Assembly: GCF_051401765.1 (NCBI RefSeq)
Contig: NC_135073.1
Location: 9,734,001 to 9,798,000 of the forward strand
Origin: Calliopsis andreniformis
Taxonomy: Eukaryota > Arthropoda > Insecta > Hymenoptera > Andrenidae
DNA length: 64,000 nucleotides
Direction: 5' to 3'
Each line of letters opens with the position of its first letter. Within the stretch, counting starts at the first letter, position 1. The notes under the pieces were generated by a model, which was given only the letters and a program-made list of their open reading frames with translations, was not told the DNA's origin and ran no database searches. The translations under genes were made by a program, and so were the position numbers. This document shows, in pieces, positions 31,301 through 60,300 of the stretch.

Positions 31301-32947
31301 GTGAGATGGCTACCGCATAATGCAATTGTGAATATGATTGCTAATAAAAACAATGGGTGGACGAAAATGGAGAAAAATGACGAAAGGTGGAGCATGTATG
31401 GACTTCAAGGTAATTTGTCGTATAATAGAAGAACAACGAGGGTCATATTATATTCATGAAATGTCTCACTCTTTAATTTTATACTAAATGGAGCAAGTGA
31501 AATTTGAGAGGCTTAACAAAACATTAAAATATTCTGTAATATGAACCAATCTCGATGCTAAATTTAAGTTTGTTTTAATAGAAACCTAGCTGCAATGTCG
31601 TGTCATGTTTTTGTTTGATTAATGTTAGTGTCACGCATTTTTGGCTAGCAATAGTTTATCTAGGAAATTGAAATTTAGATGCATGATCTATAAAATATCA
31701 ATCCTTGACTTTCGATCAACAGGCCCAGCTTCTGAGTTACGTTCAGAACCTTCAACCTCGATCCGTGACAACTATTTATCTTCGTTTATAGGACGCTGCT
31801 CATTGATCGTGGCAGAATAAGGTCTTCTTAGTATAAATTCCGCCATCTCTGGTACGAAAGTCCCAGCAAATGGTGCATTGATTAATCCTATTAGAGACCA
31901 TAGATCTTGTGAAACCCTTGCATGCAGAGTAATAGGAATCAAGAAAAATAAAATTAATTTCTCAAGAGAGGAGAATTCTTTTTAAACTAACCACATCATT
32001 ATTACTAACTATTACCACATTGCGTAATAAACATTGTCACATACAAACTTATAAATAAACTGATTCCAATAAATTACCAGCATCCAATTTTATACCAAAT
32101 TACTTTTTATCTACCCTCCTTTAACGAAGCTCGAAACTTTAAATAAATCAGTCTCGTCCACCCATAAAAATTAACATACCTCTTAATTCAATAGACACAC
32201 ACGGCGCTATGACTTCTTCATTATCAGAATTTGAACGATGAATTTATTGCGGCTCGTAGATAGCCAAGAAAAGTAATTCTTTTTTAATTGATCATAGAAA
32301 GAGACGTTAGAAGTCGTTTCAAGAATTACGCCGCGCGATAATTTTACGTGAACAAGCCGATAAAGCTGATGCGGTGCTGTGGCATCGTTAGCCATCGTGT
32401 CTTTCTCGCTTCAATCCTTTGAAACGCCTACTGCCGTAACCTGTTCTGGAATCGTTAGATTCAATCTAGACGCGCCGTGATTCCAGCTACAGAACGGAAG
32501 GTATCGATTCCCGATGGAAACTTAAGTACATCCTATGCGAAACGGCTGTGCATTCAATGCACCTTTCGATATTCGATCATTGTGCTTCTGGACTAATAGC
32601 GGCGATATCATGCTCTACATGTCAATGAATCCTATTATTTCGCTTGGAGCGATTTTACTTTTACCCTCCCCGCGCTTCCCGTTTCCGTTATTTGTGGCGT
32701 CCTGTCTTGAGTGCAACAGCCTTTGATAACTAATGTGACTTACGTAGTAGATCATAGGTACTTACCTGTACTTTTTATTAGATAATGCTATTACAAAATT
32801 ATTCAACGTAAAATTCCATAAGCTTGAAACTAACGTTACTTGTACTTTTATACGATATTATTTTTAGTCGTTTCGAAGCAATTTATTTTTTAATTCGTTT
32901 TAGGGCAACTTGAAAGCAGTTTAAAGAAGATTAATTTCTTTTGAGTA
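16301..32947. other. Gene-poor stretch
   Basis: No exon with a recognisable domain was found on either strand. CpG-rich blocks near 17050-17970, 18540-18940, 19480-20290, 22560-23060, 24060-24640, 26120-26690, 28280-29560 and 30360-31160 carry many short overlapping frames on both strands (for example 19885-20277 + against 19878-20318 -, 28294-28662 -), which argues for composition rather than coding. Several contain homeodomain-type TAATTA words, so conserved enhancers are the likeliest content. One MITE (19254-19451) is listed separately. Confidence 0.45.
19254..19451. mobile_element. MITE-like element, TA-flanked, about 198 bp
   Basis: The ends form an inverted repeat: left TACAGGATGTTTCAGAGTTG, right (reverse complement) TACAGTCTGTTTCAGAGTTG, with similarity continuing a few bases inward. 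Both ends carry TA, consistent with a Tc1/mariner-type TA target. The interior is AT-rich with no transposase frame, so it is non-autonomous. The superfamily is inferred from the TA only. Confidence 0.75.
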
Positions 32948-33158
32948 TACTGGGTGTTTCATAACACGTGGGACCTACCATCTTCAGATGCAAGGTGGTC
33001 ATTTTGAGTATCTTCTATAAAGGGGATTAAAACAGAAAATTCATTGGACCTCAGAAATGAAGACAGATAAGAACATGTGTTTGTATGACTTTTTTCATTG
33101 TTTTTAAGTATACAATCAACTCTCCAGGTAGGTCCCACATGTTATGAAACACCCTGTA
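32948..33158. mobile_element. MITE-like element, TA-flanked, about 211 bp
   Basis: The left end TACTGGGTGTTTCATAACA and the right end, read as reverse complement TACAGGGTGTTTCATAACA, continue as inverted repeats through GTGGGACCTACC, about 32 bp in all with two or three mismatches. TATA/TA flanks both ends. There is no coding capacity. The end design TACAGnnTGTTTCA is shared with the element at 19254, so the two may be related families mobilised by the same transposase (inference). Confidence 0.85.
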
Positions 33159-36100
33159 TAATACAGGCAACTTAAATCCATAATAATATTCACATGAATT
33201 TCCTTCAAAGTAAACTTTCAAAATATTTCATACCTTTTAACAAATCATTATCAGTTCTACTACCATAAACCTTCAATTCCAACAAGTCACTAATCACGTC
33301 AGTAGAAAGTGTTCACATGATTTCACAGGAAAAAGGCCATAAAGCAACTATCTCTGCACACTCGATTTATTTCATTCTTAATTTCGCTTAATCATGCTGC
33401 CAGAGTCTCATGGAAACTCCCGCGTTTCTATCCAGTTCTGACTTCAAACATCTGTTAACCTGCATCCTAATGACACACGTATTTTTCCCTCAGTCATCAT
33501 CGGTCGACCGTATCCATTTTCCATGATTGTCCTAATTTATTGCTCGATTCGATGTTATCAGGCCGCGAGTTATGGAACCAGACGCACAGTAAGCGCCGCG
33601 ACGCTAATGAACTTAATCCGCTCGAAGGAAAATCAATTCGCGTTCACTCGTGACCCCCTGCTCCTTGGCCAATTGCTTACGTACGATTTCCTCTTCGTGA
33701 AGTATGGAGAGCCTTCGAGAACGAAAGGAACGCTTTATCGAAGTCCCCAGCGTCCCTTTGCGAGGTCAGTTTTGCAAGAATTCGCAATCTCCATTGGGTA
33801 TTGTATCGCGGGAAACATAGCAGTCGTGTATAATCGAAAGTTTATTGTGTTCGATGTGGTAACAGATGGAATATATGAGGAACTCGAGACCACTGGCCCG
33901 GAATGCTGTGAATTTGTTAAATTATGTGAGCTGATACGAAGTTTAGTGATATGGCGCGAACTGGTTCTGTTTAAAGTTTGCGTCTTGAGGAGATTAAACT
34001 TGTCGTTAGTTTGTCGATATGTGTTGCATTGTAGATACATATTTGATTCGTGGTGCTCCGTAGGAGTTCGTGGTAGGTAAAAATTGGTAACTATATGTTC
34101 CTGGTTCCATATATTTGGTAATCTTATAGTCAAAATTCAGAGCAGTGTTGCATATTTTACTTACAATTACGTAGGATACTATGTAATAGAAAAGACAGAC
34201 TTTCTACCTTGATAAAATTAAGTTTTCATCGAATCTTGTGTGAATATATAATTAGAATAATATAACTATTTAGTATGTGACAAGATTGCATAATTCACAT
34301 TGTATATTTTGAAATACTAACTATAATATAGTCCCAGGAATATGTTTAATATCGAAGAGATATTAAATTTGTATTTCATATAAGGAAACTGAAGAAGAGT
34401 TAAACTCTTTGAAGTTTATAAATTTGGAACTTTGGATTAGATAAAACAAAATACAGCATAAGTAATCACAGAATCTGTCAATTGTTATGCCTCTACTAAA
34501 AAATACAGTACCTTCATGAAGACTAAGAGTTACAGAATTAGTGTCATTATTATAATATCACCTTTATCCCATAAATTATGCTTCACAAAGTTGTTCTTCA
34601 TAGTTAAGCGCTTTCGTTAAATTTCAATAATACTTGTACTAGTAGACCATCAAAATTCGACCCAAGAAACAGGCTTTGCTCTTTAAAGACATCTTCGAGA
34701 CAATTGCGCAATAATTCTCCCCATAAAACTGGCCCTGAGTTCCAAAAGTGTTCGAGGGTTTATGAGAAAATCGTGATCCCCTGAATACGATGGTAAATTA
34801 TCGCGTAACCACACGATTATTCTTTACCGTCGACACATAAATCAATTTCAGAGCGCGAAACTTGGCGTTCTGTATCGCAGATACACACAGTCGGTTTATT
34901 ACGCGACAATAATTTAGTCGGACCGTGAAACGCTAAATTCGCGAGCAAACCACTGTGCAAGCGGTTACATACGCCAACGTTATCGTCGAAGTATGCAACT
35001 TTTATGTAAGCCTGTGTCCCACTAGTGGACAACACCTTGAACACAGCCTTGGGCATTTGATCGCTTTACTTTGAGCCAGGCGTGTGTTCATTCGCTTGCC
35101 TGTACTACTTGCTGTTTTATAGTCGTGTTTGTCGTCAGCTGCAATACACAGATGATTTAGATTCACGACAGACGTGGATTTTATGGAAAATTCTGCGAAT
35201 AGAGTGGAGCTGTCGAACTCTTGTCTGTCGACGCGAGGATGCAAGTTTGGAATAACATTTTTATTTGAACTTCTCAAAATGTTATCTTCCCTCTGTCTGT
35301 TTAGGAAACAGATGTTTGTTAAACTTAAAGCATGAGCTTAGGAATTTTCAAAAAATTTGAGGATACTTCACAATTTAAGCTCAAGGATTCAAAGCATTCG
35401 TCATGGTATAATCTTAGAACTTGATTTCTAATCCTTTTATAACTCACAGACGTCGAACGTATCGAGTATCAGGAACGGTATCATTTACACTGTCCTACAT
35501 ATCAAATCGGATAAGGATTGTTTCTAATCCGCGAATTCTTTTTGAAACATGTTATACCTGGAGGCCACGAGTTGTACTTCGTTCTGTAAGGGATTCGAAC
35601 GTAGAAATTTTGTAGCAAAAGAAAGCAATAATTTAATGCTTCTCGATAGTTAGGCAAAGGTTGAGTAGTTCTGAAGTTCGATATAGTTAAACTGTGATTT
35701 ACTCGTAAGTGTATAAATTTCAACATTTTTGTTATGATCATTCCTTTCCCTCACGTTTGACTTATAACAAGTTATATTAGTAGATAGGAGAAAGTTCAAT
35801 CTGGCTTTCGAAAATAGAGATATAGCGGTGTTTCTAGAATGACCACCCACGATGAGAACGTGGCTTTTGATGAGATTACTACCGTAGTGTTGCACTGTAA
35901 CAAAATTGATTATTTATTATTGTGAATTAGTTTTGTCGTTTGTCTACTATTGAAGAAATGATAAGCATTTTGTTTATACCTGAATTTAATAGCAATCTAA
36001 GGATATCATCGTTTAATAGGATCTCTAGACATTATTATACAATTATGTTCATTAATAAGATTTGTTTATTTACTGAAAAAAATATCCATCCAAAAATAAT

Positions 36101-36399: not shown

Positions 36400-36453
36400 G
36401 GACCACTCTAGCCAGTGAACAACTTGACTGTTGATCAGATGTATTTGGGTTAC
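36400..36453. repeat. Left copy of an array-flanking repeat
   Basis: ACCACTCTAGCCAGTGAAC, then AACTTGACTGTTGATCAGAT and GTATTTGGGTTAC, match 44236-44287 in the same orientation with scattered differences. The pair brackets the structured array and its promoter. Confidence 0.7.
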
Positions 36454-36614
36454 TACTGCGGGTTATTACTATGCTTTATCGATTTCTTATTAACTTATCA
36501 GGACTGCTTTTATTTAATTTCGAGTCACTATTATAATTTGAATTCTTATCACTTATAGCACCCACTAGATAATAATAGACCTAACATCCTATGTACTTTT
36601 CTGTCCCTGATATT

Positions 36615-36632
36615 TGGGGTGCTAGCACCCCA
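36615..36632. other. Perfect 18-bp palindrome
   Basis: TGGGGTGCTAGCACCCCA reads the same on both strands. It lies just outside the left edge of the array. It could be a protein-binding site or hairpin; no function is evident. Confidence 0.8.
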
Positions 36633-36959
36633 TTATCATTTTACTGTATTACCCACGAAGTCTCACAGCAGATTCCAACGCGACGAGTTTTCGGAATTAT
36701 AATTAAAATGGAGTAGGCAGATTATATTAAGCCCGTAATTTTTGAATATTTATATGTAAAAAGAAAACCATCGAAGAAACCCAAGAGTATCAAGACAAAC
36801 ACACCAATAATTGAGGGAGCTTCCCAAAAACTAACAAGAAATGATAGAACACCAACAAAAGAAACAAGTTACAACATTATCATATCTTTAGATCTAGTTT
36901 AGCCTATCTTTAAATCTAGTACAAAATACACAGCCATTAGCACGGACAGAGCCGCCCCA

Positions 36960-36995
36960 GGTCTCACCACGAGGAGGTTGCTGTGCTGGAGACCC
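36960..36995 (-). repeat. Module C1: conserved GGTCTC...GAGACC element
   Basis: GGTCTCACCACGAGGAGG followed by TTGCTGTGCTGGAGACCC: the best conserved 36 bp of the array. An outer stem CACAGC (36932) pairs with GCTGTG (36980), and GGTCTC pairs with GAGACC, so two mutually exclusive or nested stems are possible. Confidence 0.75.
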
Positions 36996-37058
36996 ACAGG
37001 GAGATAGATGGAAACAAAGTTCCATCGATCTCCCTTCACAAAAATCTTAAACTAACAA

Positions 37059-37565
37059 GCCAAAGACATGAATGGAAGCCAAGTTCCATGCATGCCTTTA
37101 GCATGGACCTTAGAGTAGGAAATTGTCGAGTTATCATTAGGAATGGTTTGATTAAATTAGACTCTACAGCTAATGCAACCATGAAATAGACGAGCGATAG
37201 TGCGAGCACTACCACCTTGAAGGCCGGTAGGTCGGAGAGGCGTACGGCACTACACGATTCAGTCAATTGTCCATTGCTCCCTGCTGCCACATAGGAGCTA
37301 CCGAAGTAGACCTAATTCCGACAGGCTGGTAAAGAGAATGTGCAAAAGGCGGAATCGTGTAGTTTCCACAGTCGAGTGTGTCTTTCCACACACCCTACTG
37401 TGTCCGTGGCGTCACTCCTAGTACAGACCCCCAAGGGGAGAACACGCTCTACCGACCGACGATTCCACGGTTGGTCACATGCTTCTACCAAGAGAAGCAG
37501 CGGTGACTTCCTCACCAAAGATGAGGAACAAGTATCAAAAAAAAAAGTTAAGAAATGACAACTCG
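37059..37565 (-). repeat. Module B1
   Basis: Begins with hexaloop hairpin 37059-37102, then CTACCACCTTGAAGGCCGG, CCACAGTCGAGTGTGTC-TTTCCACACACC and TTCCTCAC-CAAAG-ATGAGGAA (37508-37527). It is a diverged, longer relative of module A. Confidence 0.75.
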
Positions 37566-37589
37566 ACAATTGTACAGTGAATTTAAACT

Positions 37590-38285
37590 AGAGAGGCAAA
37601 GACATGGATGGAAGCGATGTTCCATCCACGCCTTTTCCTTGGACCTCAAAGTAGAGAAGTGCCAAGTAATCATTGAGGAGAGATTGGGAATATTTAGAAT
37701 CTACCGCGCAAGGCAACCATGAAATAGACAATCGGTGGTGCGAGTCCTTCCACCTTGAAGACGGGTACTAGGAGAAGGCGACTGGCACCTCACAGCCCAA
37801 TCAGTTGCCTGATTGAACTGTGGGGTTTCCACCTTCAAGTGTGTCATACCACACACCATCGAGTGTCCACATCGTCTCTCGCTAGTACAAATCCCCAAGG
37901 GAAGAAGAGCAAGCTCCATCGACCGCCGATTCCACAGTTGGATATTTGCTTCTACTGAGAGAAGCAGATGACCTCCTCACAGAAGGTGAGGAGGTAGTGA
38001 CCGAGCAAGGAAAGCTAAGAAGTGACAACTTGGCAGTGTTACAATACTTTACAATGAAAACTTAGAAATAGGGCCTTAAAAATATTCTAAGATACTGTGA
38101 CTTATATACTAGAAGCGGTGAATCCCTCGGCGGATGCGACGTCTTCATTCACACGAACAATAAAGAGTAAAGACAGAGCTTTACGAACCATAAGTGATGA
38201 ATCCCTCGGCGGATGAGATGTCTTCCGTAGGCTTAACGATACGATCTTAAGTTAAAATCTTAAAGTCTATAGTTTGAACTAGTAA
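37590..38285 (-). repeat. Module A1
   Basis: Hexaloop hairpin core 37598-37635, CAATCAG/CTGATTG hairpin 37798-37815, CCTCCTCAC/GTGAGGAGG hairpin 37972-37994, then two CCCTCGGCGGATG(C)GA motifs near 38120 and 38197. The 3' half is part of a duplicated block identical to A3. Confidence 0.8.
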
Positions 38286-38890
38286 ACCAAAGATATGGAT
38301 GAAAATCAAGTTCCATCCATATCTTTAGCTTAGACCTTAAAGTAGAGAAGTGCCAAGTAATCATTGAGAAAAGATTGAGAATATTTAAAGTCTACCGCGT
38401 AAGGCAACCATGAAATAGACAATCGGTGGTGCGAGTCCTTCCACCTTGAAGACGGGTACTAGGAGAAGGCGACTGGCACCTCACAGCACAATCAGTTGCC
38501 TGATTGAACTGTGGGGTTTCCACCTGCAAGTGTGTCATACCACACACCATTCGGTGTCCACATCGTCTCTCGCTAGTACAAACCCCCAAGGGAAGAAGAA
38601 CAAGCTCCATCGACCGCCGATTCCACAGTTGGACATTTGCTTCTACTAAGAGAAGCAGATGACCTCCTCACAGAAGGTGAGGAGGATGTAACCGAGCAAA
38701 GAGAGCTAAGAAGTGACAACTTGGCAGTGTTACAATGACTTTACAATAGAATCTTAAAAGTAGGGTCTTAAAAATATTCTAAGCGATTGCGACTTATATA
38801 CTAGAAGCGGCGAATCCCTCGGCGGATGCGACGTCTTCGCTCTTCAGTCTTCAAGTAAAAAGTGAAGAGAGAACAAGCATCAAGAGTATT
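38286..38890 (-). repeat. Module A2
   Basis: Hexaloop hairpin 38287-38328, followed by the same internal order as A1; CCTCCTCAC hairpin at 38663-38685 and CCCTCGGCGGATGCGACGTC near 38815. Confidence 0.8.
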
Positions 38891-38965
38891 ATATCAATAA
38901 TTGGGGGAGCCTCCCCAAGAATACCCCAACGATGGCACAGCCATTGGCCCGGACAGAACCGGCCC

Positions 38966-39002
38966 GGGTCTCACCACGAGGAGGTTGCTGTGCTGGAGAC
39001 CC
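38966..39002 (-). repeat. Module C2
   Basis: Same 36-bp core as C1, preceded by TGGGGGAGCCTCCCCA-type inverted repeat (38902-38917), GCACAGCC (38936-38943) and GGCCCGG...CCGGCCCGGG. GGGTCTC/GAGACCC gives a 7-bp stem. Confidence 0.75.
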
Positions 39003-39089
39003 ATATGGATATCATAGAAATGAGAAAGGATCGACAGAGCAATCCAAACCCAGAGTCAAGAGACAACATATTTAAACAGAATACAGAAT

Positions 39090-39290
39090 TGAACGACGTT
39101 GACATTGATGGAATTCTTCTTTTCATACTTTAATTCCATGTTCACCTAAACCCTGAAATGCTACAAATTAGAAATGCAAATAAAATCCCTCGGGGGATAC
39201 AGTGTCTTCGTTCGACGAATGATCTTCAAGTGATGATGAGTGTTATTAGTGATGAAATCAACAGGAGGGAAATTATTGCAGCAGGCTTTC
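39090..39290 (-). repeat. Module D1
   Basis: Contains TTCACCTAAACCCTGAAATG and ATCCC-TCGG-GGGAT, a perfect 5-bp stem tetraloop, followed by GTGTCTTCG. Related copies are at 41040-41225, 42765-42905 and 43150-43330. Confidence 0.65.
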
Positions 39291-39471
39291 CAAAATGAAG
39301 AGCAGAATCAGAGGTCAAAAGAAATACATAAATCATTAAGGGAGTCTTCCCAAGAATAATAAGGGAACCATTGACGTTCAAGAGAACGAAAAAATTGATA
39401 TAGACCCCTACCTAACGACCCTTACATCTAATACAAGATGCACAGCCATTAGCACGGACAGAGCCGCCCCA

Positions 39472-39507
39472 GGTCTCACCACGAGGAGGTTGCTGTGCTG
39501 GAGACCC
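39472..39507 (-). repeat. Module C3
   Basis: Core identical to C1, and again followed by ACAGGGAGATAGA and the hexaloop hairpin at 39510-39547. Confidence 0.75.
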
Positions 39508-39569
39508 ACAGGGAGATAGACGGAAACAAAGTTCCATCGATCTCCCTTTACAAAAATCTTAAACTAACA

Positions 39570-40262
39570 AGCCAAAGGCATAAATGGAAGTGAAGTTCCA
39601 TCCACACCTTTAGCTTGGTTCTTATAGTAGAGATGTGCCAAGTAATAATTGAGTAGAGATTGTGAATATTTAGAATCTACCGCGCAAGGCAACCATGAAA
39701 TAGACAATCGGTGGTGCGAGTACTTCCACCTTGAGGACGGGTACTAAGAGAAGGCGACTGGCACCTCACAGCCCAATCAGTTGCCTGATTGAACTGTGGG
39801 GTTTCCACCTGCAAGTGTGTCTTACCACACACCATTCGGTGTCCACATCGTCTCTCGCTAGTACAAACCCCCAAGGGAAGAAGAACAAGCTCCATCGACC
39901 GCCGATTCCACAGTTGGACATTTGCTTCTACTAAGAGAAGCAGATGACCTCCTCACAGAAGGTGAGGAGGTAGTGACCGAGCAAGGAAAGCTAAGAAGTG
40001 ACAACTTGGCAGTGTTACAATACTTTACAATGAAAACTTAGAAATAGGGCCTTAAAAATATTCTAAGATACTGTGACTTATATACTAGAAGCGGTGAATC
40101 CCTCGGCGGATGCGACGTCTTCATTCACACGAACAATAAAGAGTAAAGACAGAGCTTTACGAACCATAAGTGATGAATCCCTCGGCGGATGAGATGTCTT
40201 CCGTAGGCTTAACGATACGATCTTAAGTTAAAATCTTAAAGTCTATAGTTTGAACTAGTAAA
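39570..40262 (-). repeat. Module A3
   Basis: Hexaloop hairpin 39571-39614 (the one with most A.C pairs), CCTCCTCAC hairpin 39948-39970, CCCTCGGCGG motifs near 40096 and 40174. From 39933 it is identical to A1/A2 at an offset of 1976 bp. Confidence 0.8.
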
Positions 40263-40840
40263 CCAAAGATATGGATGAAAATCAAGTTCCATCCATATCT
40301 TTAGCTTAGACCTTAAAGTAGAGAAGTGCCAAGTAATCATTGAGAAAAGATTGAGAATATTTAAAGTCTACCGCGTAAGGCAACCATGAAATAGACAATC
40401 GGTGGTGCGAGTCCTTCCACCTTGAAGACGGGTACTAGGAGAAGGCGACTGGCACCTCACAGCCCAATCAGTTGCCTGATTGAACTGTGGGGTTTCCACC
40501 TTCAAGTGTGTCATACCACACACCATCGAGTGTCCACATCGTCTCTCGCTAGTACAAACCCCCAAGGGAAGAAGAACAAGCTCCATCGACCGCCGATTCC
40601 ACAGTTGGACATTTGCTTCTACTAAGGGAAGCAGATGACCTCCTCACAGAAGGTGAGGAGGAAGTAACCGAGCAAAGATAACTGAGAAATGACAACTTGG
40701 CTGTGTTACAATGAGTTTACAATGGAGACTTACAAATAGGGTCTTAAGAATAGTCTAAGTGATTGCGACTTATATACTAGGTGCGGTGAATCCCTCGGCG
40801 GATGCGACGTCTTCGTTCTTCGATCTTCAAGTTAATATGA
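40263..40840 (-). repeat. Module A4
   Basis: Hexaloop hairpin 40263-40304 identical to A2; CCTCCTCAC hairpin 40639-40661; CCCTCGGCGG motif near 40791. Confidence 0.8.
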
Positions 40841-40910
40841 ATGACTGGGGGAGCCTCCCCAAAAATACCCCAACGATGGCACAGCCATTGGCCCGGACAG
40901 AACCGGCCCG

Positions 40911-40946
40911 GGTCTCACCACGAGGAGGTTGCTGTGCGGGAGACCC
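40911..40946 (-). repeat. Module C4
   Basis: C2-like copy with a TGCTGG to TGCGGG change just before GAGACCC-type end; stem GGTCTC/GAGACC intact. Confidence 0.75.
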
Positions 40947-41039
40947 ATATGGAGATCACAGAAATGAGAAAGGATTGACAGAACAATTCGTACTCAGAAT
41001 TAAGACAGAACATACTTAAACAGAAAACAGAATGGAACG

Positions 41040-41225
41040 ACGTTGGCTTTTGATTGAATACTTCTTCTATGTTCATTTAAACCCTGAAATGTGAAAAATT
41101 AGAAATACAAATGTAGTCTCTCGGGGGTACGATGTTTTCGTTCGATGAGTGATCTTGGTGTAATTGAAATGGGAATGATAATTATAACCAGTGATAAAAT
41201 TTACAAGAGAATAGAGAGACATGCA
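41040..41225 (-). repeat. Module D2
   Basis: TTCATTTAAACCCTGAAATG and a decayed CTCTCGGGGGTACGATG motif. Confidence 0.6.
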
Positions 41226-41354
41226 GCAAAGAGAGAAGGGACGAATAATAGAAGCATATCAATGAACGTACAAAATGAAAGAAACCAGCCCTACCTAGCT
41301 ACCCTTATATCTAATACAAGATGCACAGCCATTAGCACGGACAGAGCCGCCCCA

Positions 41355-41390
41355 GGTCTCACCACGAGGAGGTTGCTGTGCTGGAGACCC
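41355..41390 (-). repeat. Module C5
   Basis: Core identical to C1/C3, followed by the hairpin at 41393-41430. Confidence 0.75.
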
Positions 41391-41449
41391 ACAGAAAGAT
41401 AGATGGAATCCAAGTTCCATCGACCTTCCTTTACAAAAATCTTAAACTA

Positions 41450-41965
41450 ACAAGTCAAAGACATGAATGGAAGCCAAGTTCCATGCATGCCTTTAGCTTC
41501 GACCTTAGAGTATGAAATTGTCGAGTTATCATAAGGAAGGGTGTGGTTAAGTTAGACTCTACCGCTAATGCAACCGTGAAATAGACGAGCGATGGTGTGA
41601 GCTCTACCACCTTGAAGGCCGGTAGGTCGGAGAGGCGCACGGCACTACATGATTCAGTCAATTGTCCATTGCTCCCTGCTGCCACATAGGAGCTACCGAA
41701 GTAGACCTAATTCCGACAGGCTGGTAAAGAGAATGTGCAAAAGGCGGAAACGTGTAGTTTCCACAGTCGAGTGTGTCTTTCCACACACCCTACTGTGTCC
41801 GTCGCGTCACTCCTAGTACAGACCCCCAAGAGGAGAACACACTCCACCGACCGACGATTCCACGGTTGGTCACATGCTTCTACCAAGAGAAGCAGCGGTG
41901 ACTTCCTCACCAAAGATGAGGAACACATTTCAAGAAAAGAAGTTAAGAAATGACAACTCGACAAT
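41450..41965 (-). repeat. Module B2
   Basis: Close copy of B1: hexaloop hairpin 41454-41497, TTCCTCAC-CAAAG-ATGAGGAA at 41903-41922. Differences from B1 are scattered single bases. Confidence 0.75.
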
Positions 41966-41984
41966 TGCACAGTGATTTTACGCT

Positions 41985-42560
41985 AGAGAGGCAAAGACAT
42001 GGATGGAAGACAAGTTCCATCCACGCCTTTGCCTTGGATCTTAAAGTAGAGAAGTGCCAAGTAATCATCGAGTGGAGATTGGGAATGTTTAGAGTCTACC
42101 GCGTAAGGCAACCATGAAATAGACGATCGGTGGTGCGAGTCCTTCCACCTTGAAGGCGGGTACTAGGAGAAGGCGACTGGCACCTCACAGCACAATCAGT
42201 TGCCTGATTGAACTGTGGGGTTTCCACCTTCAAGTGTGTCATACCACACACCATTCGGTGTCCACATCGTCTCTGGCTAGTACAAACCCCCAAGGGAAGA
42301 AGAACAAGCTCCATCGACCGCCGATTCCACAGTTGCGAGTTGCTTCTACTAAGAGAAGCAGAGATCACCTCCTCACAGAAGGTGAGGAGCAAATGATCGA
42401 GCAAAGATGACTAAGATGTGACTACTCGGCAGTGTTACAAAGATTTTACAATAGAATCTTAAAAGTAGGGTCTTAAAAATATTTTCAGCGATTCAGACTT
42501 ATATACTAAAAGTGGTGAATCCCTCGGCGGTTGCGACGTCTTCGTTCTTCAGTCTTCAAG
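41985..42560 (-). repeat. Module A5
   Basis: Hexaloop hairpin 41990-42033 with the longest stem (GGCAAAG...CTTTGCC), CTCCTCAC/GTGAGGAG at 42368-42390 and a decayed CCCTCGGCGG motif near 42521. Confidence 0.75.
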
Positions 42561-42764
42561 CAAAAAGTAAGAAGTGAGATGTATAAAAGACTCGGGCAGC
42601 CGCCCCAGCAACAGGAGCAAAACGAGAGATAGGGAAAAATATATGAATAAATGGAGAAGCCTCCTCAATAGCAAGAGGAAAACCATAGACGTTCGAGAGA
42701 ATGAAGTTCAAGATAAATATTAGAAAATGTTATAATTAAACAAAGGAGGAAACTGAGCGAGATT

Positions 42765-42905
42765 GACATATGATTGAATTCTTCTTTAAATACTTTCATT
42801 CGATGGTTACCTAAACCCTTAAAGCGTAAAAATAAAAAATGTTAATAACATCCCTCGAGAGATTGACGTCTTCATTAAATGAGTGATCTTCGTACAAAGA
42901 GTAAA
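42765..42905 (-). repeat. Module D3 (shortened)
   Basis: TTACCTAAACCCTTAAAG and ATCCCTCGAGAGAT; the most diverged D copy. Confidence 0.5.
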
Positions 42906-43017
42906 GAGAAAACCAGCGAAGGAAGAATATGAAGAGAATTATTTCAATAATTGGGGGAGCCTCCCCAAGAATACCCCAACGTTGGCACAGCCATTGGCAC
43001 CGGACAGAATCGGCCCG

Positions 43018-43053
43018 GGTCTCACCACGAGGAGGTTGCTGTGCAGGAGACCC
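43018..43053 (-). repeat. Module C6
   Basis: C2-like copy nearest the promoter; differs at TGTGCAGG, GGGTCTC/GAGACCC stem intact. Confidence 0.75.
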
Positions 43054-43149
43054 ATGTAGAAATCACAAAAATGAGAAAGGATTGGGAGAACAATCCGTAC
43101 TCTGAATCAAGACAGAACACATTTAGACAGGAAACAAAATGGAACAACG

Positions 43150-43330
43150 TTGATTGAATTCTTCTTCGATGTTCACCTAAACCCTGAAATGTTAAAAATT
43201 AGAAATGGTACTGAAATCCCTCGGGGGATACGATGTCTTCATTCGGTGAATGTTCTTCATGTGAATGAAATAGGAATGATAATTATAACCACTGATGAAA
43301 TCAGGAAGAGAATAAAGAGTCATGCAGCAG
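43150..43330 (-). repeat. Module D4, nearest the promoter
   Basis: TTCACCTAAACCCTGAAATG and ATCCC-TCGG-GGGAT identical to D1. Confidence 0.65.
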
Positions 43331-43521
43331 GGAAGAAAGGGAGGAATAACAAAAGTATATCAATGATTGCAAAAGCAAGAGATGAACCAGAGATCACGAG
43401 AAATATATAAATGATTAAGGGAGCCTCCTCAAGAACAAGAAGGCGGGGTACTTAAAAAAAGAAGGAACCAGAAAAGAGAGACAACAGTAGAAATAAATTC
43501 AAAATTTGAGCAAAAACTTAC

Positions 43522-43680
43522 CGGTTGCCCAAGATGACCACTGGTCATCGGTCAGCTGACCACTGGTCAGGGGTGTCCACGAGTCCATGGTGGTCCAAGG
43601 TCCAGGCAGGTCCAAGACCCAGGAGTCCCTCCAGGATCCCCAGGGAGGTCCTCACCCACCGGAGGACCCGCGACGAGTGA
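43522..43680 (-). other. Putative first exon of a minus-strand transcript entering the array
   Basis: It lies directly downstream of a TATA box and ends with a textbook donor (ACCG|GTAAGT). It is GC-rich, with palindromes GATGACCACTGGTCATC (43533-43549) and GTCAGCTGAC (43551-43560). An ATG at 43588 has an optimal Kozak context (ACCACCATGG) and opens MDSWTPLTSGQLTDDQWSSW, then AT, to the donor in phase 1, so a short coding first exon is possible. No acceptor or next exon was identified. The start is placed about 25-30 bp after the TATA box by convention, not by data. Confidence 0.45.
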
Positions 43681-43702
43681 CACACTCGTGCTTCTGCGGG
43701 GG

Positions 43703-43737
43703 TATTTATACTGTCTCGCAGAAGATGAGAAACCAAT
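43703..43737 (-). promoter_or_regulatory. TATA plus inverted CCAAT promoter pointing into the array
   Basis: On the minus strand TATAAATA (43710-43703) lies 22 bp after an ATTGG (inverted CCAAT, 43737-43733). The sequence between and beyond is GC-richer than the neighbourhood. Spacing to the putative exon and its GTAAGT donor supports minus-strand initiation near 43680. Confidence 0.5.
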
Positions 43738-44030: not shown

Positions 44031-44135
44031 GATTGTTATTAACCCTCGGACTACAAATTCTGGGTCAAAAGTGACCCTGAGACCGCTGGCTCTTATATGA
44101 ATGTAAAATAATCTACTGTCCGAGGGATAACAATC
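44031..44135. mobile_element. piggyBac-like MITE remnant, about 105 bp
   Basis: Ends are inverted: left GATTGTTATTAACCCTCGGAC, right as reverse complement GATTGTTATCCCTCGGAC. TTAA (44039-44042) flanks the left CCCTCGGAC; the right counterpart is ATAA, so one TTAA has decayed. The interior holds a GGGTCA-AAAG-TGACCC hairpin. TTAA targeting and a CCC-start are typical of piggyBac elements; family assignment is inference. Confidence 0.6.
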
Positions 44136-44235: not shown

Positions 44236-44287
44236 AACCACTCTGTCCACTAACAGCTTGACCATTGATCAGATGTCTTTGGCTTAC
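44236..44287. repeat. Right copy of the array-flanking repeat
   Basis: ACCACTCTGTCCACTAACAG, then CTTGACCATTGATCAGATGT and CTTTGGCTTAC, match 36400-36453. It sits just upstream of the minus-strand promoter, suggesting that the whole locus, promoter side included, was once duplicated. Confidence 0.7.
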
Positions 44288-45807: not shown

Positions 45808-46674
45808 GTTACTCAGTTTATTAACTCTTCGTTTCAATCGATGTTCAAAAAACCTTATAACCTCGTAACACTATTAGTTTCTAATTTTTATCCTCAAAAC
45901 GATGTAATCACAACTCCTTCAATTTCTCCTCCTTCTTTACATTACTATTAAATAATTTCTATAAAAAAGTTCTATTAAGAATAAAGCCTATCATTTACCA
46001 ACATAAAGAACGAAATCCTTATTTAATAATCAAGAAATTCTTTCTTCGTTTTGAATGCTACATCTGCCTCTTAATTTGTTTTTTCAGGAACATTATGCAA
46101 TATCGTGGCAGAAAAGTACGGTTTCCTCGGCATAATAAGCGCCGATATCATTCGACACGAGGTGTCGACACGCACAGACAGAGCCGTCGTGCTTGCGCGA
46201 CTGATGTCACAAGGGCGATTGGTACCATCAGATGTCCTGATCGAATTGATTACTGTGAAGATGCTCGACCATCTGAAGAACACAAAAGGATTCATCATCG
46301 CTGGATTCCCAAGGCACGTGGACCAATCCAAATTATTCGATGCCGAAATACGACCACCCGATCTAGTTTTATTTCTGAACGTTCGAAACTCTGTTTTGAG
46401 CGACCGTATAATGGCCAGAATGATCACGACCACTGAAAGAATGCCATATGATTTCGATAGCATTAAGAAACGCATCAAGATGTTTCGTAAAAAGAATGGA
46501 CCGATACTTAAATACTACAAAAAGAAATACTACGAGGACCAGATTTTAGTGGTCATCGATGGTGAGCCAGAACTGACAACCGTTTTTGATAGCGTGTGCA
46601 CAGCTATTGATAACATTTTACCGAAATTCCCATCCACGTCCGCGACATCTACGAACAACGATAAGCAACCTTAG
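45675..46674 (+). CDS. Adenylate kinase, short-LID (AK1/AK5-like), 239 aa, two exons
   Basis: Nucleoside monophosphate kinase (ATP + AMP = 2 ADP). Exons 45675-45807 and 46088-46674 join in phase 1. Residues 33-46 give the P-loop (IIFIIGGPGAGK, then RT), about 57-65 SADIIRHEV (AMP site Arg), 86-88 LVP, 109-117 GFIIAGFPR, then a short LID with the four catalytic arginines kept (SDR, MAR, TER, KKR), and IVRK-like C-terminus replaced by YYEDQILVV. Start chosen at MGNCIKP because an acceptor (TTGTTTCTAG, 45618) precedes it; an upstream in-frame ATG (45600) would cross that site. MGNC suggests N-myristoylation plus palmitoylation, so membrane association (inference). Oddities: the family's Asp in (D)GxPR is Ala, the LID RxDD acids are Pro-Tyr, and P-loop KGT is KRT. 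Activity may be altered. No paralogue nearby. Confidence 0.88.
46088..46674 (+). CDS. Adenylate kinase coding exon 2
   Basis: 587 bp after acceptor TTGTTTTTTCAG. It starts with the split Arg codon and TLCNIVAEKYGF and ends at TAG after a polar tail (SATSTNNDKQP). It contains the AMP-binding, LID and C-terminal core segments. The intron is 280 bp. Confidence 0.9.
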
Positions 46675-54300: not shown

Positions 54301-57300
54301 TAATTAAGATGTCTAATAGCTTCAAGATGAAGTATCAAAAAGTAAATCCTACAATTACGATGGCAGGGGGAAGAAATGAGAAGGCTTTAAAGAATCAGAG
54401 AAGGACTCGTTTAGGAATCCCCCATGGCTGAATCTTCTCACCTTTTTCCTCTATGCTCTGTTTTACTTATAAATATTAATGTCGGATATTCTTTACCGTC
54501 TGTGGTTTTTGCGAACTCATTTCTCGATGTAAATACTGTTTGCTCACACTATTCAGTGGGTAAGCCTTAAGGGATGCGGGAAGAAATGGCTGTGGTCTCT
54601 TGGGGACAAAAACCGCAGTCAATGGAGCAGCGATTCCTTCGAAAAGTCCAACACTCGTACAAAATTCCTTCCTCGTTTTATTCTGAATGCAAATTTTCTT
54701 AAAGCTTGTCTGAGACTGTTTCCTTGGATTTTAATGAGACAATGAAAAGCCAGCATACATAAAAATCTACATAATCCTATTAATTTCTCAAATCCTCTTT
54801 ACAGATAGAAAAAGTAAATTCTATATACCATTTCTACTATAATAACTTTAATCAACTTTCTCCCCAGTAACCTCCGCTTACGATCATAAATTTCTTCACT
54901 TCATTAACATTATCGATTACCTCGACCCCGTTGTAGCTGCCACTTTTATAGCCAAGCAGTCACTTTTCGACACCTTTCATCAATAATCGCGAAAGATATC
55001 GGTACCTTACTCAATTCAATTTAATCGTCCACAAATCTTACGAATACCAACTGGCTCGTAAATCCTTCGTGGCGATCCATAACGTTTGCGCGTTAGCCGT
55101 AAGCGTGCAATTATTTTATGCGCGTCCTCTGTGTCCATCGGCCCCGCCTCGTGAGAATCAATCAAGGGTGGAAAGTGGCGTGTACCGTTTGGGGTTGGTC
55201 GCTCCAGCGCGCTGAAGAGATTTCTAGGATTAGCTGGACGCAACTGCCAGCTGATCGAATAGGATGAATCAAGTCTGATCGTAGAAAAATTGTATTCTGA
55301 TTGTGAATCGATTACTTCATTGATAAAGCGTAGGAGAAGGAAATAGAAGTTTCAGGCAGAATTATGTTTTGTCTTTTTGACGTGAATTATCTTTTTGAAT
55401 TTTTGAATCTTTAAATCTTTGAATGTTTGAATATTTGAATATTTGAATATTTGAATATTTGAATATTTGAATATTTGAATATTTGAATATTTGAATATTT
55501 GAATATTTGAATATTTGAATATTTGAATATTTGAATATTTGAATATTTGAATATTTGAATATTTGAATATTTGAATATTTGAATATTTGAATATTTGAAT
55601 ATTTGAATATTTGAATATTTGAATATTTGAATATTTGAATATTTGAATATTTGAATATTTGAATATTTGAATATTTGAATATTTGAATATTTGAATATTT
55701 GAATATTTGAATATTTGAATATCTGTAACATAAATCACAATCTCACAAGCTTTGTATGTATTTAAGGACTTCTCCTCATTAGTATCATAAGACTATTCCG
55801 AATACTTTAGCGAAGTAAATATAACAGAACAAAGCCACGAAGAAATTTAAATATTAATTTTCAGACTCGGGGGAGAGCAGCGTAATCTCCCCAGGACTAC
55901 CAGAGCGCTACAGTCCATTAGGAGCGACAGGATCGACCTCGAGTCACGATCCTTACGCTTCGAGGTCGGTCCAGGAGTGTCCTGTTCCTCTTTGCAGAGG
56001 AATACCAACGGATTTCCCTTTGGCGAGGTCACCCTATCTGACCGCCTTGGGAAATGGCCATCCCCATCTGCTGGGACAAGTGCAACAGCAGCAACACCAG
56101 CAACAGCAGCAACAACAACAGCAACAGCAGCAACAACAACCGCAGCACGGCAGCAAGCCACCGCGCAGCCTGGGATTAATATGCGTGGTCTGTGGTGACA
56201 CTAGCTCTGGGAAACATTACGGGATTCTGGCCTGCAACGGTTGCAGCGGTTTCTTCAAGAGAAGCGTCAGACGGAAGCTAATATACAGGTGAGTTTATTG
56301 AAAATTATAAATGAAGATGCAATTACTTGGTGTGGAAGGGAAACTTGACTCAACTCAAAGATTTAAATTAATTTATTTGCAAAAACTCAAATTCTTCTTC
56401 GAGGAATTGTCTACTATTTTTATATGAAAAAGATTAAGCTGACTTATTATTATTTAACTTTTATTGTAAAGAGCTACTGAAGGTTGCGAATAATGCATAA
56501 GAATGTAAAAAATAAAATAAGTTTGGTAATAGATGTAGATGATTTTTTATTTAAGAATATGACAGTATTTTCTAGTAATTTCTAATATCCATGTTCTGTG
56601 CTTGATACACACATTCAATAATTATTACTGAAAGTATTTCCCATTTGTATGCAAAAAGTTGCAGATCTATTCAGCAACTCGTATGAAATCCGCCAAACGC
56701 ATTTACACCACTGGAAGCTATTAAAAAACCCATTTTGAATAGCAATAAAGAAGTAGTTTTCAATATCTTCTCAAGAATATTCATCTTAATGATTAACTAT
56801 TTCCTAGTTAAATTACTATTTCATTATTAATTCCTACAATTTGCGATAGTCATGGAAGTTGTCACTTTGCGACATTCATCATTTAATGTTAAAATCAGCC
56901 TAGCTCAAAGAGACCTCAAACCCATCTTATATCAAATCGAAATTAGCGAGTGAATCCTCTGGTGGCGTTTAATGTCAAACTGACCAGCCAATGGCGCCAT
57001 GTGGTCCAAGTCGAGTGGGCTCATCGTAATACCAGGCAACAATGCGGAACGGCATAATGTTGAATCCTGGAGGACCTATCCACCTAAACCGGCGCACTCT
57101 GTATAGGGCATACTATTACCATCCCCTGGGATCGACCATCCATCTCCATCGGATCCCTCTCAACTCAGAATCGCTGTCTGATACGCTCGACCCGTTTTAC
57201 ACCAGAGCCACATACGAAAGCCAGCGGGCTCACTGTATGCGTGTGCATCCCTTTGCCCCCGTACGTGACTATCGATACAACCCAGGTCATATAGGTGTGC

Positions 57301-60300
57301 GCGTTAAGCTTGTCGAGAAGATACACGATGCCAGGATACTCGATATACAAACTATTAACCCCAGCGAGCGGCCTTTGAAAAATAAGAGGCGACGCGGATA
57401 CTCTGAACGCGTGACTGGGATGCAAACCGCGTTCAAAGATAGCTGGAACACTCTTTGGACTCTGCTGAGACTTTTGGACATCCTGAAAGGGGACGAATGT
57501 AGACTACTTTGAGAAGGATATATAATGGGAAAGATTCATAATGGGAAAGATGGCCGTGGAGTTTTCTTTGGAGACGATTTTGTTGTGTGGACTTAGTAAA
57601 GTGAATTGCTAGGAATTAAAATTGCTCGATTCAGGAGTATGGTTAAATAGTGATTCATAACTTTTGAATTTTGAATTTTTATGTGTTAACAAATTTTCGC
57701 GACTTTATTGCCGAAGTATCTAGTTTATATTTTACGTAATTCCTTTCCCAGAATAGAGATTGAGAAATCGCTGCCTACGACGTCCAGACCTACTGCGTAT
57801 ACCGTAATAACGCGACATCAGAATTATGTAACACAGTTAGGGTGATGACAACTGGTTACTGTTTGTGGGCACAAACGTAAACGGAAGATATGTATGCTTC
57901 AATCAACTGATCCAAGGATAAAGCTACACCTACGCAATGAATAATTTTGTTGGAAACGAAACATCTTCAAGAGACTTTGTATTACACAATTAGCATTTCA
58001 GATACATTTATATAGTTTTCTTCTTCACTAAATCAAAACTATATTCTCAATATCTTTTCTATTAATTGTGAATGGATTACATAAAAGTGTCTCATTTGAA
58101 GGCACCCTTCGATTTCGATATCTATCTTGTTGCAGTGCATTTCTATTCTTCTGTATCTTTTTTTCTTCCGCATTGATTCTCGTCGAATAGACCGTAATGC
58201 GGTAAAGAGTGAAGAGCCTCCGCACAGATAACCAATTATTCGTAGAGGGGAACGAACCGCGACAGATGCGTCCCGACGTGATGCTCCACGGCGGCGTATC
58301 GACCATAATCGTCGGATTAAAGTCCAACTTCACGGATCGGTTAGATGCAATTAAGTACATCGTGCACGACCCAGATTGCATCGAGAGTTCTCACCAACTT
58401 CCACTGGGACACACTTGAATTTCGCGCGCAATCACTCCTCTTTTCGATCTTAAATGAATGATAGACATCTGGATTGATTCTATTTCAAATAGTTATCATT
58501 TGCTTAAAAGCATTGAAACTTTGAATATATAATTTTTTTTTAATTTCTCGTAATTGAAAAGTTGCAAGTACACAGTTGAAATTTACACTGCAATTGTGCA
58601 TAATGGTATTAGCTGGAGCTTAGTGATTTCAATGCTCCCTTCGTTCAAATACTAAAATCGAATGATTCTATAGATGGATTTTACGTTACCTTTCAAAGCT
58701 CTACAAATTTATCAATTTCAGGAATTTCAAAACTTTATTCATTTTTAGCTATGTATTTCTGTACTTTTCTTGGGTCTTAGATAATATTACCAACAAGTAG
58801 AATAAATGCTTCAATCAATGCTACAAACTTCCCAGTAAAACAGCAGGGTACTTGTCCTTTACGCTTTTAACAATTACCGTTGCGGTGGTCAATCAGGGAC
58901 CCAGGTACGAACTAATGTATTTAACCCTAATTCTATCCAACCCAAAGCTCCAGGAGTGACAGAAGGGTAACTATCATCAATCCAGCATTGTCAATTAATT
59001 ACACAATATCCAATTATGTAAAAATTGCTAAAAACTCCCCATTTAACATCTACTTCACTGAAACGTCCAATTTTGTCTGCATTAGTATCTCCACTATTTA
59101 TAATATTTAATTAATGGATAATGCTGTACTGATGCTAAGAAATTGTTGAATAATGAATCTTATAACATTAAGACTTGTGTACTCCTTTTAATACCCCTGA
59201 AGCCCCAAATTGACAGAAATCAGAAAAAAATACATTGGTTCGTACCTGGATCCCCAGTTAGCCACCTTAATGCGAATTGTTAAAAGTCTTAAAATGTAAG
59301 GCTGATGCCCTGTTGCTTTACTAGAACCACTATGTCCCCTCGTCGACTATACAGCACCTCCTGCTTGAACCTCCACCTCTCATCCTTCAGAAGAATTCCA
59401 AAGGCAACCTGTGCCCACTTCACTCTGCAGAATCTACGCTCTCGTCCAGCGGGGCTAAGTCATTGAATCATCCAGCAGGCCGATCGGCGGGCGCGATAAC
59501 AGGCAGCACATGTTTCCGGTAACTCGATGAGGCAAACAATGCCGAAGAATAGAGAGATGCGTAAATAAATGTATGATGTGGTTCTGAAGGGTGAATGCCG
59601 AGGAGGCCGAGGGTGATGTATCTCCCGTGTTGCACGGGGCGAGCCCAGCCAGGCGGGGGCCTGGCAGCCAACGCACGGAGGCTCGCTGGGGTGTGAACGC
59701 AAATCAATTTGCGAGAGGAACCCCGCTGGCACGACAGCACGCAGCCACCCTTCGGTGCCGCTCGTACGCCACCGCCTCGGGACAAGATAGTTCCAGGATG
59801 GTGGCGTCCTTTCGTCGCACGGCTGGATCCAGGCAGCCTCCTTGTGACTGACGTTAGTTAAAATCGCGCTAACGGAGCCCTGGGAATCGATCGACCGCCC
59901 CGTCCGCCGATCGAGCCCCGGGCTATTGCCCCGGAATTACGACTCCGCCGATCTTTCTCTTTTTTTCCCCTTTTCTCGCGCTCCACCTCCACTGGGAACT
60001 ACTATTAACCCTTTGCTTTATCCCGCCGGGGGTGGCTTCTTTGCAGCGTTTGTGAGGAGGCTTAGGGAATCTGATTGCGGGTTTTAGTCTTTGATAGCTT
60101 GATTTGTGGAGAGGTTTAATGGGGGTGTTAGAACATTTTGGAATGTTAGTTTTGGTACTTGAAGAATTAGTGAAGAAGCGAAGGCCTTGCTTTCTGTGGA
60201 GGGTGGTAACTATGTAACTATAAAATTTTGATCCTCAGAGACAACGTTATCAAAGTCCTTTTCTGTTATTTTTCAGGAAGGCCTAAGTACAAATGTGATT

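Follow-up and report, generated by a model that had tools for sequence, protein, structure and literature searches.

Six predicted HDV-like ribozymes may punctuate an array of structured non-coding RNA modules in a bee genome

Introduction

What does a chromosome encode where several kilobases are filled with related, hairpin-rich modules in tandem, and by which mechanism could such an array give rise to discrete RNAs? This question is raised by a locus of the bee Calliopsis andreniformis (NCBI RefSeq assembly GCF_051401765.1, contig NC_135073.1) that lies within a stretch of 64,000 nt (positions 9,734,001 to 9,798,000 of the forward strand), which we analysed as a whole and call the window; all positions below are counted from its first letter. 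A preliminary description had placed a tandem array at 36900..43340 and proposed it to be a structured non-coding RNA locus or a cluster of small-RNA precursors. It missed the decisive point, which is that the conserved core of the array lies on the minus strand and fits a ribozyme like that of hepatitis delta virus (HDV), and this ribozyme-like core gives the array a mechanism. We consider it probable, at about 0.65, that the array encodes a long non-coding RNA (lncRNA) on the minus strand that is cut by six HDV-like self-cleaving ribozymes.

The self-cleaving ribozymes known from animal genomes mostly belong to mobile elements; a few, such as CPEB3, stand alone. If our reading is true, ribozyme processing would be the organizing principle of this chromosomal locus, in which six cores are kept while their surroundings diverge, and in which the cores alternate with a large covarying structure. 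The array would then offer a concrete place to ask whether animals make structured or circular RNAs by means of ribozymes.

A tandem array of four module types

A direct-repeat search finds tandem structured modules from approximately 36,780 to 43,500 (about 7 kb), i.e., the array is present where it had been described and reaches slightly further. Repeat search and alignment (families D1, D2, D3, and D12 cover the module types) give five copies of a domain of ca. 440 nt (C), two of a longer relative of it (B), six of a core of ca. 68 nt that shows the ribozyme fit, and four of a linker. Along the array, a linker is followed by a core, a C-rich block, and another core, after which the next linker begins the series again. 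The copy numbers fit the 5, 2, 6, and 4 module copies counted previously under letters that had been left undefined. Identity is 89-97% among C copies, 95% between the B copies, and, with gaps counted, 60-63% between B and C, and a 26-mer of the core has six exact occurrences (chance expectation 0.00). On its minus strand the array contains more T (0.338) than A (0.227), an excess that the flanks do not share, and by blastn (E<=1e-4) its modules do not recur in the rest of the window.

The array is richer in hairpins than its background, since 200-nt segments with a fold z-score below -3 make up 9/36 on the plus and 6/36 on the minus strand inside it, compared with 2/141 and 5/141 outside. The earlier claim that nearly all conserved stretches are inverted repeats fails for the best-conserved stretch, the core, which fits a pseudoknot, and for the linkers, whose segments have z-scores near 0.

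Six cores fit the HDV-like ribozyme fold

All six cores seem to fit the fold of HDV-like self-cleaving ribozymes. The Rfam check that had been suggested for this locus came back empty at gathering score for the entire window (ribosomal RNA and ribozymes on either strand included), while a permissive search of 4227 families placed its six top bit scores, all from the HDV ribozyme family RF00094 (26.9-30.5 bits), at the six minus-strand cores. The second HDV-like family, RF02682, matched five of the six (22.4-26.8 bits). A descriptor of the double pseudoknot, which requires helices that the Rfam HDV model leaves out, was run over both strands of the window and retrieved exactly the six cores, all on the minus strand, with 0 hits on the plus strand. 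Its false positives were few: on shuffled sequence it produced 10 hits in 100 windows and 6 in 500 arrays, and a second, strict descriptor (U and G of L3 required, P4 unchecked) produced 11 in 300 windows.

The nested double pseudoknot of P1, P2, P3, and P1.1 together with P4, which is common but dispensable by the criterion for the HDV-like class, can be drawn for six of six cores. Its five helices comprise 23 pairs, and 99.3% of their cells over the six copies (all but one) are paired, compared with 29-41% when the partners are slid. P1 has 7 bp without mismatch and starts with a G at the predicted cut in every core, with a first pair that is G-C in three and G.U in the other three, and P2 (7 bp) counts as added evidence because it is unpaired in the Rfam model. 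J4/2 reads CUAA or CCAA in all six, and it is in J4/2 that HDV-like ribozymes carry their catalytic C, followed by N-R-A. L3 is UCCUCGU throughout, and its U and G would probably form the reverse wobble pair that an excerpt of PMC3774820 describes for HDV-like ribozymes. The few variable sites are J1/2, the outer pair of P1 (G-C or G.U), the outer pair of P2, P4 with its loop, and the second position of J4/2. A model built from the six cores recovers only those six in the window, by construction.

The cores belong to two alternating classes, A and A', with three copies each, and the likeness between the classes starts within 1 nt of the predicted cleavage site. Ungapped identity between A and A' rises from 17-47% in the 60 nt upstream of this site to 90-94% over the 52 nt that follow; when gaps are allowed, it is 59-66% in the 100 nt before the cut, 88-91% in the core, and 52-61% after the core. 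Invariant columns of class A' number 66 of 70 in the core, 201 of 355 in the upstream flank, and 84 of 252 in the downstream flank, and the corresponding counts for class A are 68 of 69, 150 of 202, and 65 of 247, with columns that are not independent of each other. We regard the cores as predicted HDV-like self-cleaving ribozymes and infer cleavage itself from this fit.

The large domains share one covarying structure

The C and B domains share one long covarying RNA structure. RNAalifold on the seven copies predicts hairpins and a rod of ca. 300 nt in addition to a closing helix and a 3' hairpin, with 119 to 149 predicted pairs per domain. To avoid circularity, the structure was predicted from the five C copies alone and then tested on the two B copies, in which 12/15 and 12/16 double changes are still paired (permutation null 3.8 and 3.2); this is the kind of covariation check that the preliminary description had called for. 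When the 3' hairpin is left out, the final structure has 119 pairs, 16 of which have changed on both sides, compared with 0-2 for slid and 6.7 for shuffled controls. The seven 3' hairpins of C and B form a family of 10 copies with the three hairpins that precede the class A ribozymes, and this family has 13 double-change cells vs 4.4 in shuffles (reached in 0/500). The held-out covariation, the beaten slid controls, and the empty Rfam result at gathering score bear out the earlier proposal of a structured non-coding RNA locus, and the C/B domain may represent a new RNA family of its own.

Which strand is transcribed

Watson-Crick pairs covary on both strands, and it is therefore the one-sided changes that decide the strand. 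Folds of the plus strand also do well in the held-out test from C to B (14/19 and 14/18 double changes kept). In one-sided changes, pairing on the minus strand is kept above permutation (p 0.09 and 0.16 for the B copies; p <=0.016 for each of the five non-independent C copies), whereas on the plus strand it is not kept above expectation (p 0.64-0.99). Read on the minus strand, the hairpin family contains G.U pairs in 19 cells and non-standard combinations in 7. Because the ribozyme fits on the minus strand and the one-sided changes point the same way, we take minus as the RNA strand; it is presumably the transcribed one, and most tests agree.

Results that weigh against this reading

Several results count against a minus-strand transcript that is processed by ribozymes. 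The Rfam scores of the cores lie below the gathering cut-offs of both families (50 for RF00094 and 44 for RF02682), for which reason we do not file them as members of either. The library-wide E-values of the HDV model are 0.08-1.2, and an unrelated model, mir-2566, does equally well by E-value (0.13-0.15). With scores below cut-off and E-values no better than those of mir-2566, Rfam alone is not decisive. The strict descriptor gives at least one hit in 13/1500 shuffled arrays, and the six cores amount to about one draw in this shuffle test because they are related repeats. Covariation in the ribozyme is thin because there are so few changes among the copies: one pair, in P4, has changed on both sides, and 24/500 shuffles reach the observed score. 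Nested-only folding, in which pseudoknots go unscored, yields P1 in 3/3 A' copies and 0/3 A copies, and the class A cores favour another nested fold (-22.2 kcal/mol, z 0.27). The spacer between P1 and P2, J1/2, is 2 nt long if P2 has 7 bp and 3 nt if the outer P2 pair is open; in a mosquito ribozyme, a spacer of 0 nt gave no activity and one of 1 nt little (PMC4908430, excerpt).

Beyond the cores, the reverse structural test from B to C is weak (8-9/16 kept, null 4.1-4.7, p 0.0235-0.054, on five non-independent copies), and further pair types in the 119-pair structure are not above shuffles (366/500). The mean fold z-score of the array is lower on the plus (-1.92) than on the minus strand (-1.22). 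Folds restricted to Watson-Crick pairs show a slight excess of G.U over A.C (9 v 7, 16 v 10, 16 v 7, 17 v 16, and 20 v 15), a mere lean to minus. The candidate pair of TATA box and initiator (Inr) is not significant, with 9 such pairs in the window on both strands vs 3.9 per shuffled window, nor is the absence of AATAAA across 36,520-43,700 on the minus strand (0 in 113/500 shuffles).

A proposed route from transcript to RNAs

In the mechanism that we propose, transcription would begin near 43,680 and continue beyond 36,780, and cuts at 43053, 41390, 40946, 39507, 39002, and 36995 would yield RNAs of 1663, 444, 1439, 505, and 2007 nt (Table 1). The class A' ribozymes would form the 5' ends of long units, which would contain the folded domains C+B, C+C, and C+C+B, respectively, and the class A ribozymes would form the 5' ends of linker units that would leave as separate short RNAs. 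By the predicted cuts, each long unit would end directly after a hairpin. Every released RNA would begin with a 5'-OH and a folded ribozyme and would terminate in a 2',3'-cyclic phosphate. Such ends can be joined into circles by an RtcB-type ligase, and the bee RNAs might be ligated in this manner. Their folded domains may be used as repeated protein-binding or scaffold modules. Computation shows the repeats, the fit of the six cores to the ribozyme fold, and the covariation of the domain structure; promoter, cleavage, circles, and this use of the domains are what we infer. The fullest version of this idea, i.e., a bee lncRNA gene with serial HDV-like ribozymes as punctuation in which six self-cuts of two alternating classes yield multi-copy folded RNAs, possibly circles, from one promoter and with no protein processing enzyme, is tentative, with the odds somewhat against it.

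Table 1. Positions of features in and around the array, counted from the first letter of the window; cuts, ribozymes, promoter, and exon are predictions.
Feature	Position	Strand	Basis and remarks
TATA box TATAAAT of candidate promoter	43704..43710	-	motif; TCACT Inr-like site 32 nt downstream
Candidate first exon	43522..43678	-	inferred from sequence and motif scan; 3' end is a consensus-like 5' splice site CCG/GTAAGT (43521)
Linker copy 1	43054..43520	-	repeat families D12, D15
HDV-like ribozyme class A' copy 1	42985..43053	-	predicted cut 43054/43053; RF00094 26.9 bits, descriptor, pair counts
Linker-like copy within first long unit, with degenerate box	42600..42900	-	family D12
Domain C copy 1 including 3' hairpin	41987..42431	-	alignment, structure, covariation
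Domain B copy 1 including 3' hairpin	41451..41963	-	alignment, structure, covariation
Hairpin directly 5' of class A cut, copy 1	41394..41431	-	hairpin-family alignment
HDV-like ribozyme class A copy 1	41323..41390	-	predicted cut 41391/41390; Rfam, descriptor, pair counts
Linker copy 2	40947..41300	-	direct-repeat search
HDV-like ribozyme class A' copy 2	40879..40946	-	predicted cut 40947/40946; Rfam, descriptor, pair counts
Domain C copy 2	40259..40702	-	alignment, structure, covariation
Domain C copy 3	39568..40011	-	alignment, structure, covariation
Hairpin 5' of class A cut, copy 2	39510..39547	-	hairpin-family alignment
HDV-like ribozyme class A copy 2	39440..39507	-	predicted cut 39508/39507; Rfam, descriptor, pair counts
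Linker copy 3	39003..39400	-	direct-repeat search
HDV-like ribozyme class A' copy 3	38935..39002	-	predicted cut 39003/39002; top Rfam scores: RF00094 30.5, RF02682 26.8 bits
Domain C copy 4	38283..38726	-	alignment, structure, covariation
Domain C copy 5	37592..38035	-	alignment, structure, covariation
Domain B copy 2	37056..37568	-	alignment, structure, covariation
Hairpin 5' of class A cut, copy 3	36998..37035	-	hairpin-family alignment
HDV-like ribozyme class A copy 3	36928..36995	-	predicted cut 36996/36995; Rfam, descriptor, pair counts
Box of ca. 27 nt, GAAGACRTCGYATCC.CCGAGGGATT, one of 11 copies	38121..38146	-	picked by eye, aligned
Other box cores	43224, 42527, 41124, 40798, 40185, 40106, 39193, 38822, 38209; 11th, degenerate, near 42860	-	
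First AATAAA downstream of array	36509..36514	-	motif scan

Alternative explanations

The array is compatible both with a host gene and with a silent cluster of a mobile element. The latter would be a tandem cluster of a non-autonomous element, i.e., an HDV-ribozyme counterpart of the hammerhead retrozymes or of internally deleted elements of the R2 type, in which the ribozymes cut the element's RNA out of read-through transcripts and a reverse transcriptase recognizes the folded domains. HDV-like ribozymes have been reported from R2 and other long interspersed nuclear elements (LINEs; excerpts of PMC3774820 and PMC7761336), and head-to-tail multimers without coding capacity are what retrozymes look like. 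However, Pfam detected no reverse transcriptase domain in the 17 open reading frames (ORFs) submitted to it (of 51 stop-to-stop frames of at least 100 aa in the window), the modules lack a second copy in the 64 kb at the blastn threshold given above, and the units keep a fixed alternating order (A', structured block, A, linker), which resembles local duplication of one composite unit. We consider a mobile element rather unlikely on this balance.

Ordinary satellite or other repetitive DNA, with an accidental resemblance to HDV and accidental base pairing, is highly improbable. Tandem repeats of 2 kb arise readily, and the sub-threshold Rfam scores and the strict-descriptor hits in shuffled arrays would be in keeping with it, but neither the held-out covariation and slid controls nor the invariance of the core from the predicted cut onward would be expected of neutral satellite DNA.

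Still a little less credit goes to a small-RNA precursor cluster, in which hairpins of about 19-22 bp (10 in the aligned family) would be diced into products like microRNAs or small interfering RNAs. Ten related hairpins with strong covariation would suit such a cluster, yet their 6-nt loops and stems of about 19-22 bp would be short for microRNA precursors, the Rfam microRNA models stay far below their cut-offs (best 26.5 bits vs 86), and the best-conserved stretch of the array lies elsewhere, so that this half of the preliminary proposal is not upheld.

That the array codes for a repeated micropeptide is scarcely credible: a 72-codon frame is open in 5/5 C copies, but its 12 single-change codons comprise 1 synonymous and 11 nonsynonymous ones (one multi-change codon left out), 4.4 synonymous would be expected if the 15 changes were placed at random, the frame survives such placing in 55% of simulations anyway, and the B copies, which carry indels relative to C, diverge in translation. 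A coding micropeptide in the C domain was rejected on these counts, with 1 synonymous change against 4.4 expected not being protein-like. The previous statement that no frame is kept in a protein-like way holds between the C and B classes; the C copies do share an intact frame, which is not protein-like. No protein signal was found in the array, where three ORFs had no Pfam match (delta antigen was not searched for by itself).

Comparison with known systems

Several known systems come close to the array. With the HDV-like ribozymes (HDV, CPEB3, drz-Agam, R2, and those of other LINEs) its cores have in common the nested double pseudoknot with P1, P2, P3, P1.1, and P4, the cut (predicted for the cores) 5' of the G that opens a 7-bp P1, the U and G of L3, and the C of J4/2. 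In contrast to them, the cores are very compact (about 68 nt, with a 2-nt J1/2), score below the RF00094 and RF02682 cut-offs, and stand six in series, in two alternating classes, between folded RNA domains. Retrozymes, the hammerhead-bearing retroelements of plants and animals with circular RNAs, likewise consist of non-coding tandem units bounded by self-cleaving ribozymes, which are predicted in the array. The array's cores are of HDV type rather than hammerheads, with two ribozyme classes per composite unit, and its units are 0.44-2.0 kb long compared with ca. 150-300 bp in animal and ca. 700 bp in plant retrozymes (excerpt of PMC7761336). No hammerhead matched at gathering score in the window, nor at E<=10 in 36,500-43,700, and the array does not fit that family, though it would work like a retrozyme.

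R2-type LINEs and their internally deleted non-autonomous forms also make RNAs that have folded regions and start with an HDV-like ribozyme. They differ in that the array has several predicted ribozymes per unit, and that neither an R2-type gene or reverse transcriptase (in the 17 scanned ORFs) nor ribosomal RNA (Rfam gathering score, window) turned up with it. HDV and HDV-like circular RNA agents combine a ribozyme with long rod-like pairing as well, but the array shows its ribozyme fit in one polarity when HDV-type folds are sought (6 descriptor hits on minus, 0 on plus) and is a chromosomal tandem of several diverged copies, three ORFs of which match no Pfam family. Finally, hsr-omega and the bee lncRNAs kakusei, Ks-1, and AncR-1 are long non-coding loci, too. 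In hsr-omega, tandem repeats follow the 5' part of the locus. This part comprises two exons and one intron according to the review PMC8069800, the main text of which mentions no ribozyme for the insect repeat lncRNAs. Identity with honeybee kakusei is unsupported, as none of eight kakusei oligonucleotides from PMC1847703 has a close counterpart in the window (at best 17-19 of 24-30 letters).

Exact patterns from the ribozyme and the C domain had 0 matches in viral contigs, and that from the ribozyme had 0 in GTDB genome contigs, which says little because these collections cover viruses and prokaryotes. In the open-licence literature of PubMed Central, we found no paper on HDV-like ribozymes together with Hymenoptera or honey bee, and no hymenopteran array of such ribozymes is named in the listed titles and abstract beginnings on HDV ribozymes.

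Other features of the locus and its neighbours

A box of ca. 27 nt that is absent from the previous list of modules occurs in 11 copies (Table 1) and in several contexts. Five copies directly precede TAGTATATAAGTC on its 5' side, in front of a C domain. The box is not obviously a hairpin and may perhaps be a site that acts at the protein or DNA level. Transcription by RNA polymerase III from these boxes plus TATATAAG was considered and dropped because the T runs sit within domains. Three linkers also keep the motif CATTTCAGGGTTTA(G/A)(G/A)TGAACAT on the minus strand (near 43180, 41080, and 39150), which has a diverged relative near 42812.

A direct repeat of 52 bp (83%; 36402-36453 and 44237-44287) brackets the candidate transcription unit just outside both ends. 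About 330 bp upstream of the candidate promoter, a short element at 44036-44133 has 16-bp inverted ends (CCCTCGGAC; 88% complementary) beside TTAA, and we take it to resemble a miniature inverted-repeat transposable element of the piggyBac type.

Among the 17 ORFs given to Pfam, curated cut-offs were exceeded by an adenylate kinase (with an overlapping AAA_17 match) and a nuclear receptor zinc finger alone, and one Ig-like match stayed below its cut-off. The adenylate kinase ORF (46,075-46,674) has 18 protein matches, the best at 73%, and all 15 named ones are from bees (e.g., Osmia 64%, Andrena 63%, and Habropoda 62%). The zinc-finger exon lies at 55,858-56,292, and about 140 bp ahead of its ORF there is a tandem repeat (TTTGAATA)41 at 55394-55722 with 98% matches. 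No transfer RNAs were found in the window. Two inverted repeats lie elsewhere in it, at 32946-33160 (34 bp, 94%) and 58864-59286 (59 bp, 80%).

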